Shown piece by piece: positions 14,740 through 53,400 of a stretch of DNA of 64,000 nucleotides (position 1 is the stretch's first letter; each line of letters begins with the position of its first letter). Source of the DNA: Halapricum salinum (lineage in GTDB: Archaea; Halobacteriota; Halobacteria; Halobacteriales; Haloarculaceae). The stretch lies in assembly GCF_004799665.1 (NCBI RefSeq), contig NZ_CP031310.1, forward strand, positions 1,108,887-1,172,886, written 5' to 3'. The translations under genes and the position numbers were made by a program. The notes beneath the pieces are model-generated. The model saw only the letters and a list, made by a program, of their open reading frames with translations, had not been told where the DNA came from and made no database searches.

Positions 14740-14796
14740 CTACCGCTCGACGCAGTACTCGACGAAGTTCTGGAGAATTCGCAGTCCCGTCTCGCC
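14740..14796 (-). pseudogene. Remnant of a second hisH 3' end
   Basis: 57 bases that translate (minus strand) to GETGLRILQNFVEYCVER followed by TAG, matching the C-terminus of the intact hisH at 15002-15058 (GETGLQILQNFVEYCVER, TAA). 50 of 57 bases agree. Of five differing sense codons four are synonymous, which is the pattern of divergence between functional genes rather than of random decay. The similarity stops abruptly at 14796, where a hairpin element begins. Confidence 0.8.
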
Positions 14797-15001
14797 ACAC
14801 CACTTTTTCCTCCTCGGGTTTCCTCGGGCCTGGGGCCCTGCGGGAACCCCTCTCTGCTCACGGCGGCGAAGCCGCCGTTCGCATGGTATGCGAGAGCTTT
14901 GCTCTCGCACTAGTCAGAAAAACGTGGGGAAAACTGCCGGACGCTCCTTTACAGTCACGTCCGGTGAAACACCTCACTTCGTTCGGTGTACGCTTGCCCT
15001 C
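14797..15001. repeat. Modular hairpin element A
   Basis: Starts with CCACTTTTTCC and CTCGGGTTTCCTCG, then three strong stems: 14860-14878 (8 bp, loop GAA), 14889-14909 (9 bp, loop TTT) and 14937-14964 (7 bp). Linkers GTGAGCAGA / TTCGCATGGT (on either strand), AAAAACGTGGGGAAAA and CGTCCGGTGAAAC recur in the elements at 47.4, 51.0 and 53.35 kb while the stem sequences differ. It fills the convergent gap between arsM and hisH. Confidence 0.7.
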
Positions 15002-15652
15002 TTACCGCTCGACGCAGTACTCGACGAAGTTCTGCAGGATCTGGAGCCCCGTCTCGCCGCTCTTTTCGGGGTGAAACTGCGTCCCGAAGACGTTGCCAGC
15101 GTCGTTGGCCACGACGCTGGCGAACTCGGTGCCGTAGTCCGTCGCGGCGACGACGGCATCACTGTCTTCGGGGTCGGCGTAGTAGGAGTGGACGAAATAG
15201 GCGTACTCGCCATCGACGCCCTCCACGAGGGGGTGCTCGCGCTGGACGTCCAGTTCGTTCCAGCCCATGTGGGGAATCTTCTTCTCGCCCGTGAAGCGGC
15301 GGTTTGCCCCCGGGATCAGGTCCAGCCCTTCGACGTCACCCTCGCCGGCGTGGTCGGCTTCCTCGCTCGTGGTCAACAGCATCTGCATCCCGAGACAGAT
15401 CCCGAAGAGCGGTTTGCCCTCGGCGGCGAGATCGACGAGTGTCTCCCGGAAGGGGCCGGCGTTGTCCATGCCCTCGGAGAACGCGCCGACACCGGGAAGG
15501 ACGACACCATCGGCCGCGTCGAAGTCGGCGGGGTCCTCGCTCAACGCGACGCTCGCGCCGGCGCGTTCGAGTCCGCGCGTGACGCTGCGGAGGTTCCCGA
15601 GGCCGTAGTCGACGACGACCACCTCGGCGGCAGTCTGGCGAGTCGTGCTCAT
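15002..15652 (-). CDS. hisH: Imidazole glycerol phosphate synthase, glutaminase subunit
   Basis: 216 residues. Class I glutamine amidotransferase with the oxyanion motif GVGAFSEGM, nucleophile Cys in GICLGMQMLL (about 88) and the His-Glu pair in GTQFHPEKSG near the end. It supplies ammonia to HisF in histidine synthesis; hisF is not in the window, and hisE lies 38 kb away, so the pathway genes are dispersed. The ATG at 15652 gives a short polar lead before VVVVDYGLGNL. Confidence 0.93.
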   Translation of the reverse strand: MSTTRQTAAEVVVVDYGLGNLRSVTRGLERAGASVALSEDPADFDAADGVVLPGVGAFSEGMDNAGPFRETLVDLAAEGKPLFGICLGMQMLLTTSEEADHAGEGDVEGLDLIPGANRRFTGEKKIPHMGWNELDVQREHPLVEGVDGEYAYFVHSYYADPEDSDAVVAATDYGTEFASVVANDAGNVFGTQFHPEKSGETGLQILQNFVEYCVER

Positions 15653-22094: not shown

Positions 22095-22126
22095 CGGCTT
22101 TCTCTAGCGGCCCCGGATACAAGATC

Positions 22127-22225
22127 CTTAGCCGCCCTGGACCAGTCGCACCAGTGCGGCTGCCTTAGCCGCCCTGGACCAGTCGCACCAGTGCGGCTGC
22201 CTTAGCCGCCCTGGACCAGTCGCAC
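22127..22225. repeat. 37-bp tandem copies of the samp2 3' end
   Basis: Units start at 22127, 22164 and 22201 (period 37). Two full copies are identical; the third agrees for 25 bases and is the real 3' end of samp2. Each unit contains the last codons of samp2 (LVQGG and stop on the minus strand) plus a CAGCCGCACTGG spacer. Confidence 0.9.
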
Positions 22226-22402
22226 GACCCGGACTTCCTCGACCTCGACCGGCTGGTCCTCGGGGACTGGACGGCCGTCGACCATGAACGACACCTGGTG
22301 CTGGCTGTAGTCGGTCGGCTCCAGCAGGTCGGCGTAGGTCGCCTCGTCGTCGACCTCGATCTCGTAGGTCGTGTCTCCGATCACGTCGACGGTCACGCGC
22401 AT
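22202..22402 (-). CDS. samp2: Ubiquitin-like small archaeal modifier SAMP2
   Basis: 66 residues with the beta-grasp pattern: [59 protein letters not shown]. Length, the GRPVPEDQ turn and the terminal Gly-Gly match Haloferax SAMP2. The protein is activated by UbaA and joined to lysines of targets, and the same system thiolates wobble uridines of tRNA. The ATG at 22402 is chosen because the longer frame consists only of the 63-bp repeat translated. Confidence 0.9.
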
Positions 22403-22443
22403 GGATAGACGGTACGCACGAGCAGGTATGAGCGTGTCGCTGG

Positions 22444-22740
22444 CTCGCGGATCGTCCCTCCCCGCTCGCCCGTTTCGAGACGCTCCCTCTGGTCGCGTCT
22501 CGCTACCTCGCGGGTCGTCCCTCCCCGCTCGCACGTTTCGAGACGCTCCCTCTGGTCGCGTCTCGCTACCTCGCGGGTCGTCCCTCCCCGCTCGCACGTT
22601 TCGAGACGCTCCCTCTGGTCGCGTCTCGCTACCTCGCGGGTCGTCCCTCCCCGCTCGCACGTTTCGAGACGCTCCCTCTGGTCGCGTCTCGCTACCTCGC
22701 GGATCGTCCCTCCCCGCTCGCTCGCCCCGAGGACTCCCTG
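22444..22740. repeat. 63-bp tandem repeat between samp2 and rfcS
   Basis: Units start at 22444, 22507, 22570, 22633 and 22696; the first four are nearly identical and the fifth is diverged after 25 bases. Each contains the hairpin CGAGACGC / GCGTCTCG. The fifth keeps a hairpin with other bases (CGAGGAC / GTCCTCG), that is a compensated change. The array occupies most of the 385 bases between the two divergent starts; the rfcS TATA box lies just after it. Confidence 0.9.
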
Positions 22741-22756
22741 CGGTCGTCCTCGCGGG

Positions 22757-47340: not shown

Positions 47341-47541
47341 GGGAGTCGCCAGCGTACGCGCCGCAGGCGCGTTTTTCCGTCAGAGCGAAGCTCTGACGAC
47401 GTTCACGTCGTTGCACTCCGTGAACCCCCGGAATCGCCCTGAGAAGGCGATTCCGGCCTTTTTCCCCAAGTTTTTCGGCCGATGGGTTCCCGCAGCGAGC
47501 GTCGTGGCGCTCGCGAGGAAACCCGAGGCCGAAAAAGTGGT
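47341..47541. repeat. Modular hairpin element B
   Basis: On the minus strand it begins right after the engB stop with ACCACTTTTTCGG, CTCGGGTTTCCTCG, then GCGGGAACCC and AAAAACTTGGGGAAAA. Stems: 47356-47372 (7 bp, loop GCA), 47378-47398 (9 bp, loop GAA), 47401-47425 (7 bp), 47428-47456 (11 bp) and 47495-47514 (7 bp). Linkers are shared with elements A, C and D while stems differ. It fills most of the 381-base gap between engB and the rhodanese gene. Confidence 0.75.
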
Positions 47542-48165
47542 TCAGAAGAACTTGAACAGATCGTCCCGATTCGCTTCGTGCAAGTGTTCACGAACGGCCT
47601 CGTTCAGGGCCGCGATGTTGCCGCGCTTGGCCGAGATGGGTGCGATGGTGTCTTGCCACTGCTTCCAGGGGGGATACATGCCGAGTCGCTCGGCGAGGTC
47701 GTTCAGCCGGTCGTCCTCGTCGTCGACCTTGTCCATCTTGTTGACGGCGACCACAGGAGAAACGCCGACGTCCTGCAAGAAGTGGAACATCTCGACGTCG
47801 TGGGGGATCTCGTCCTCGCCCGAGTGGCGGTCGATGATGTCGATCACACTTTTTCCGTCGACGACGAGAATCCCCACCAGAATCTTCTCGGCGTTCGATT
47901 CGACGTAGCGTACCACGTCGGTCTTGATATCTTCGCGGACGTCCTCGGGGACGCCTTTCATGAAGCCAAAGCCCGGCAGGTCGGTCAGGACGAAGTCCTC
48001 GCTGGTCCAGTCGTAGTGGTTGGGCGACCGGGTCACGCCGGGGCGCTGACCCGTATTAAAGGTGTGGCCAGTGAGTTCGCGCATCAGGGTGGACTTGCCG
48101 ACGTTCGACCGCCCGAGGAGGACGACTTCGGCGTCGCGGTCCGGCCGCGTCTCGAACATACCCAT
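47542..48165 (-). CDS. engB: EngB-family GTPase
   Basis: 207 residues. G1 [12 protein letters not shown]3 DLPGFGF, G4 [10 protein letters not shown]5 PISAKRGNI; short TrmE-Era-EngA-like class. In bacteria EngB assists assembly of the large ribosomal subunit; archaeal proteins of this group are less studied. The chosen ATG at 48165 ([18 protein letters not shown]) could also be two codons later. It is divergent from a small membrane protein gene. Confidence 0.88.
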
Positions 48166-50927: not shown

Positions 50928-51050
50928 CTACCCCACCCTACTTCGCTCACCGCAGACGCGGTTCGCTCGTTGAGGGTAGCGTGGGACCTCGGTCCCACGG
51001 ACCATGCGAACGGGCCTGCGGCCCGTGAGCAGATGGGGCTTTGATGTGGA
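50928..51050. repeat. Modular hairpin element D
   Basis: Contains stems 50949-50962 (5 bp), 50981-50998 (7 bp, loop CTCG) and 51010-51026 (7 bp, loop TGC), the first inside an outer CTACCC / GGGTAG pairing. The linker ACCATGCGAAC before, and GTGAGCAGATGGGG after, the last stem also occur in element A (opposite strand) with a different stem between them. Confidence 0.65.
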
Positions 51051-53311: not shown

Positions 53312-53400
53312 GACCACTTTTTACTCCTCGGGTGGCCTCGCTCCCGTCCGGTGAAACGTCCCGCTTTTCGAGATTCCTCGCTCTGCTCGGAATCTCGTTA
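53312..53400. repeat. Modular hairpin element C
   Basis: Begins one base after the ASCH stop: GACCACTTTTTACTCCTCGGGTGGCCTCG, then CGTCCGGTGAAAC, and a 9-bp stem at 53369-53397 (CGAGATTCC / GGAATCTCG). It is a shortened version of element A that keeps the head and the CGTCCGGTGAAAC linker. It fills the convergent gap to hisE. Confidence 0.68.

Follow-up and report, generated by a model that had tools for sequence, protein, structure and literature searches.

A dispersed, covarying palindromic element at gene 3' ends across a haloarchaeal order

We report an order-wide, apparently undescribed family of haloarchaeal palindromic elements which combine a structure conserved across changing sequences, placement at gene 3' ends, T-runs, dispersal among loci and flanking duplications with one fixed edge. 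The explanation we favor, with a probability of roughly 0.55, is that these are dispersed, non-autonomous palindromic elements of the haloarchaeal order that are kept at gene 3' ends as bidirectional terminators. Archaeal termination is thought to require little beyond a T-run, and covarying, dispersed palindromes with T-runs on both strands, found across an order, would represent a distinct class of bidirectional terminators and would contribute to the evolution of 3' ends. The duplications with one fixed edge are a recombination signature that still lacks an explanation. No earlier description was found in the open-access literature on haloarchaeal palindromes, repeats, structured RNAs or bidirectional terminators.

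Conserved core and compensatory changes in the stems

The 68 aligned copies of the core yield the consensus RNNA-CCAC-TTTTT-N-(TCGGGT)-P2-(ACCNCTC)-N-AAAAA-CN-TGG-GGAAAA, a near-palindrome in which stem P1 consists of CCA/TGG, followed by T5/A5 and then by a few covarying pairs. Inward of P1 come an internal loop (TCGGGT/ACCNCTC) and the covarying P2 hairpin, and GGAAAA comes last. Past the core, the variable hairpins P3 and P4 are joined by GTGAAAC, and extra hairpins can be inserted. The shared linker blocks reported in an earlier note on this DNA exist far above chance: the 5' anchor, CCACTTTTTN{2,8}CTCGGGT, has 19 matches in the 3.45-Mb genome, and the 3' anchor of the core, AAAAACNTGGGGAAAA, has 44, compared with none for either pattern reversed.

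The structure that we scored was named after inspection of the 68-copy alignment, and because these copies were picked by fixed motifs, the invariant letters of P1 are no proof of pairing; the evidence comes from P2 and the inner pairs of P1. In the named structure, 93.7% of the cells are paired, compared with 42-62% when the partner is slid, and there are 87 double-change cells, compared with 25 in shuffles (none of 500 shuffles reached 87). Examples of covariation in P2 include GGTTTCC/GGGAACC, GGTGTCC/GGGCACC and GGTATCC/GGGTACC. The second set, 46 hits of the covariance model R1 drawn from other genera (G007, G017, G092, G099, G105, G130 and G264), gave 94.7% paired cells vs 43-59% slid, and 50 double-change cells vs 12, in an alignment that was fitted to the model and hence favours the structure. 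RNAalifold run on the MAFFT alignment returned a weak energy (-1.7 kcal/mol) because the stems differ in length, and the named structure was counted instead. The stems, as proposed earlier, differ in sequence while remaining paired, and are maintained by compensatory change in both the 68 and the 46 aligned copies.

Some copies are associated with additional palindromic modules. At three loci upstream of mcm (L391, L392 and L393), an 80-bp insert (TTCTCGCGAGCG..GACCGYCTTCCC) common to three congeners lies within the GTGG of the 3' arm, so that one palindromic module is nested in another. In family f4 (G099 and G130, loci L221-L228), the element runs past P4 into a conserved tail (GGTGGCGCGCC..GAGGCTGGGGAGG..GGGACTCAAAGGGGCAG) and could, therefore, belong to a larger, composite repeat. 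Another family of palindromes, GGCCTGCCCTTCCCCGGGTCG[stem]CTCCCGGCCACCGC..GCGGTCAGGAAGCGTG..CCGGGGAGG, is often located 60-150 bp downstream of the element (loci L001, L011, L012, L013, L015, L016, L018 and L019).

Elements in the window

The genome is one contig of 3,452,056 bases, in which the window, that is, the whole 64-kb stretch of DNA analyzed here, spans positions 1,108,887-1,172,886. R1 detects two full cores in the window, 14800-14933 on the plus strand and 47460-47540 on the minus strand. Of the four family members put forward in the earlier note, the sites at 14797-15001 and 47341-47541 are full members, whereas 53312-53400 is a half element and 50928-51050 has one hairpin module in common with the family.

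The core of element 1 (R1 39 bits, E 8.7e-07) consists of CCAC-T5, P2, inserted hairpin modules and A5-CGTGGGGAAAA; one of the inserted modules, TGCTCACGG..CGTTCGCATGG, was located by pattern at 14855-14886 (+). The downstream hairpins P3 and P4 (14934-15001, +), delineated by folding and by comparison with other copies, reach the stop codon of the convergent hisH. The neighbors are a methyltransferase gene and hisH itself, which encodes a class-I glutamine amidotransferase. Upstream of the element, there is a 56-bp remnant duplicate of the hisH 3' end (14741-14796, -), a direct repeat of 15003-15058 that ends 3 nt before CCAC. The working copy of the duplicated stretch is 15003-15058 (-), from which the remnant differs at 6 positions, namely, four synonymous changes and one two-base codon change (R/Q).

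The core of element 2 (R1 76.8 bits, E 5.5e-15) starts 1 nt past the stop codon (47542-47544) of an EngB-like GTPase gene and is followed by downstream hairpins (47341-47459, -), as indicated by the fold, which include P3 (GGAATCGCC/GGCGATTCC), found in the same form in many copies, and further modules. The folding z-scores are -6.9 for element 2 and -4.9 for element 1. The half element is a pattern match to the 5' half of the core (CCACTTTTT..CTCGGGTGGCCTCG) at 53314-53340 (+), 2 nt past a stop codon; across 53312-53400, R1 has no match, the core lacks its 3' half, and other hairpins are present. The site at 50928-51050 has no core and no R1 match. The hairpin module that it has in common with element 1, CCATGCGAAC..GTGAGCAGA, was located by pattern at 51002-51031 (-), and the remainder lies outside the family; this module has 5 copies in the genome, 4 of them as inserts inside true elements. 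Each site had been described as beginning at or just beyond a stop codon, which is the case at 47541 and 53314 but not at 14800, where the upstream neighbor is the hisH remnant.

Other repeats were noticed in the window. A separate palindromic structure with nested hairpins (CTACCCCACCC..GATGGGGCTTT; fold z -2.8) occupies 50928-51050, directly past the stop of a DUF389 gene. Four direct repeats with 63-bp spacing, 83-96% alike, are located at 22432-22746, where a 1165-aa reading frame begins, and three 37-bp tandem repeats (CCTTAGCCGCCCTGGACCAGTCGCACCAGTGCGGCTG) at 22126-22236.

Placement at gene 3' ends and potential for termination

The covariance search for 3'-end enrichment, which the earlier note had set as a check, showed strong enrichment. 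When open frames of at least 60 codons were considered, 50 of the 109 copies (46%) started at most 6 nt from a stop codon; for random positions within these loci, the figure was 4.2%. Among the 96 copies with both neighboring genes called by a simple GC3-based heuristic, 51 lie between convergent genes, 23 between genes in the ++ and 19 in the -- orientation, and 3 between divergent genes; the window has 14, 9, 14 and 13 gene pairs of these kinds, respectively. About 30 of the 109 copies neither abut a stop nor carry a duplication. Many orthologous 3' ends lack the element and, therefore, do not need it.

T-runs are present on both strands, CCAC-TTTTT on one, and TTTTCCCC and NG-TTTTT on the other, and T5 is positioned 4-9 nt past the stop. 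An inserted T5C terminated ~95% of transcripts in vivo in Haloferax volcanii (PMC7237163). A polymerase leaving the first gene would meet T5 a few nucleotides past the stop codon, and on the other strand, a polymerase arriving from the convergent gene would run into TTTTCCCC and NG-TTTTT. The T-run would pair with the A-run in transcripts that read through or in DNA that is extruded. Of the termination role suggested earlier, the T-runs are observed directly, and from these we infer stopping activity in both directions. The T-runs alone may do the termination, which would leave the hairpins unexplained.

At two thermosome 3' ends (L182 and L183, family f7), an analogous palindrome with other letters, CTAAATTTTGCTCTGCG[stem]CTCGGCAAAATTTAGT, is located directly past the stop codon and may represent a parallel class of elements.

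Structured RNAs typically combine covarying stems and conserved linkers; this combination, along with the strong folds and the U.G pairs that are common at one position of P2, is compatible with a 3'-UTR element or a small RNA that acts, for instance, on the stability or 3' processing of mRNA, termination being incidental. However, A.C pairs, which would be G.U solely when the opposite strand is read, occur about as often overall (30 AC cells vs 43 GU cells in alignment A1), so that these counts show no strand preference, and with T5 located so close to the stop, most sense transcripts should end ahead of the hairpin. Nor is there an Rfam match: the window has none at the gathering score, and at E<=1, four loci yielded a chance miRNA match only, outside the element. 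Overall, a primary role as RNA appears improbable.

Direct duplications flanking the element

Direct duplications, which were absent from the earlier description, flank about a quarter of the copies. When the 150 bp upstream of each copy were compared with the 400 bp downstream, a direct repeat scoring at least 40 was found for 31 of 108 copies, compared with 1 of 106 for the far-downstream, 2 of 108 for the far-upstream and 2 of 108 for the inverted control. The duplicates are 20 to ~150 bp long. Between the end of the upstream duplicate and CCAC, there are 4 nt in 13 cases and 0-6 nt in 30 of the 31, and the downstream duplicate begins directly past the core or past P3/P4. The duplicated DNA is usually the 3' end of the convergent gene, such as hisH for element 1. 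Upstream of mcm, it is non-coding, and the arrangement of elements (E) and duplicates (D) differs among congeners: D-E-D in G001 and G002, E-D-E-D in G000 and G005, and a single degenerate E in G003. The pattern recurs in other genera, and tandem arrays of element plus duplicate are found at L098, L102, L123 and L034. A duplication and an abutting gene stop occur together in 2 of the 31 copies.

The differences between duplicates are mostly synonymous, 44 to 21 as counted by script, and about 47 to 14 once the doubtful locus L042 was left out and the frame was corrected by hand in L021 and L095. This excess fits later recombination between strains replacing the working gene end, or import of the element together with the gene end. 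The duplications cannot be securely interpreted as simple target-site duplications, given that congeners carry both tandem and deleted states of a single locus. They could have originated either by insertion with a long target duplication, or by tandem duplication of the element with its neighbor followed by loss of one element; under both scenarios, the position of one breakpoint, close to the base of P1, is fixed.

The second of these scenarios is at the center of an explanation that we regard as possible, although with the odds against it, namely, that the element is an ordinary local 3'-end structure multiplying mainly by replication slippage. The hairpin would provoke tandem duplication of the element with the gene end, loss of one element would leave duplicate-element-duplicate, and spread from gene to gene would be rare or would occur via recombination between strains. 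The tandem arrays, the E-D-E-D and D-E-D states at one mcm promoter locus and the mostly synonymous differences, as expected of gene-end replacement by recombination, all are in line with this scheme. However, in several genera and nearly without exception, one breakpoint lies at a fixed place ~4 nt outside P1, for which blind slippage offers no explanation, and neither are identical copies at unrelated loci explained. In the reading as a dispersed terminator, local copies duplicate along with 20-150 bp of adjacent DNA, a pattern in which one breakpoint falls ~4 nt outside P1; a breakpoint fixed in this way points to cutting, arrest of the fork or a template switch where the hairpin has its base, and we infer breakage or template switching there.

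Distribution and dispersal

At E<=0.01 per genome, R1 detected the element in 187 of the 243 genomes of the order, representing 58 of the 77 genera, with up to 19 candidates scored per genome. In a sample of 247 genomes from across the phylum, none from another order contained the exact two-part pattern. It is missing from IMG/VR as well, so that carriage by viruses was rejected; the short pattern alone gave apparent chance hits there, three of which match the model weakly (~27 bits). Carriage by plasmids was similarly rejected, given that element 2 had no match in plasmids.

In G017, two loci that are far apart and have unrelated flanks carry one and the same 185-bp copy (100% identity), and a further pair of copies is 97% identical over 190 bp; the recent identical copies in this genome show no target duplication. 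Several near-identical copies are present in G099, and near-identical multi-copy subfamilies in G099 and G130. Because identical copies have unrelated flanks, copies evidently reach new 3' ends. Presence also varies among congeners. At the hisH locus, the core is found in G000 and G005 but not in G001, G002 or G003, and at one thermosome gene, it is found in G000 and in none of four congeners. At a second thermosome gene, the element is present in G000, G001, G002 and G003, with stems that differ between G000 and G002. The family is, accordingly, dispersed and mobile-looking, as had been surmised, although by sequence it is not the BIME/REP type named as an example.

These observations could also be accounted for by a selfish, MITE- or SMR-like palindromic repeat mobilized in trans by a transposase, in which case the 3'-end bias would reflect selection removing other insertions, and the T-runs and hairpins would be recognition features rather than terminators. 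The identical dispersed copies without long duplications in G017, the near-identical subfamilies in G099 and G130, and the rapid turnover of presence and absence speak for such a repeat. However, at the second thermosome gene, the orthologous copies of the four congeners differ by compensatory changes, which suggests selection in place, the genome lacks a Y1 transposase, and no core was found at the sampled TnpB loci. On balance, we consider a purely selfish repeat rather unlikely.

Three candidate sources of mobility were rejected. For the Y1 (IS200/REP) transposase, PF01797 had no match in the genome, while control genomes were positive. For TnpB/IS605 ends, R1 found no core at 30 TnpB loci in 30 relatives (~1.5-kb flanks, E up to 1). 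For retro-copying of gene-end RNA by a resident enzyme, the reverse transcriptase domain PF00078 had no match in the genome. A more speculative and, in our judgment, unlikely extension of the terminator model is that the terminator propagates itself, the core provoking cutting or template switching at its own base, copying into neighboring gene ends and rebuilding the 3' end by duplication. If true, this would amount to spread without an encoded enzyme and remodeling of 3' ends across a whole archaeal order.

Comparison with known systems

Bacterial REP/BIME are palindromic repeats at gene 3' ends that form tandem arrays, have a possible terminator role and are associated with RAYT transposases. 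The haloarchaeal element resembles them in being palindromic, in its placement at gene 3' ends, tandem arrays and possible terminator role but differs in that no common sequence tag was seen, the core is ~80 bp, and the genome is without a Y1 (RAYT) transposase. MITEs are defined by terminal inverted repeats that match a transposon with its own transposase, and by a short target duplication; here, P1 forms an inverted repeat of the core, but the ends of the element reach beyond P1, and no parent element was found in a search that covered Y1 and TnpB transposases. Integron attC sites, which have core sites and go with an integron integrase, are imperfect palindromes directly past the stop codon; their ends are conserved, some of the bases are extrahelical, and the middle part varies. 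Here the resemblance is structural only, and no cassette arrays were seen.

With the archaeal T-tract terminators of Haloferax volcanii (PMC7237163), the element has in common the T5 close past the stop codon. However, those are plain T-runs, partly with unrelated hairpins (PMC7237163), whereas the element is a palindrome found across the order, in which the linkers are conserved and both strands carry T-runs.

The palindrome-associated transposable elements (PATEs) of haloarchaea and the small mobile repeats (SMR) described in Haloquadratum walsbyi are short, non-coding, transposase-less palindromes (PMC3119063). Like these, the element is dispersed in haloarchaea, has modules nested in one another, and includes recent copies without a short target duplication. 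By their description, PATEs have near-terminal palindromes related to those of IS605-type TnpB transposons, whereas the core is missing at the IS605-type TnpB genes of the 30-locus sample. PATEs also lack target duplications; the recent identical copies in G017 show none, and about a quarter of all copies have flanking duplications of 20-150 bp. The element further differs in its hypervariable stems with compensatory change, its 3'-end placement, the T-runs on both strands and the length of the flanking duplications. Transposase-less palindromic repeats are a known kind of element, and what is new on top of that is the flanking duplications with a fixed edge.
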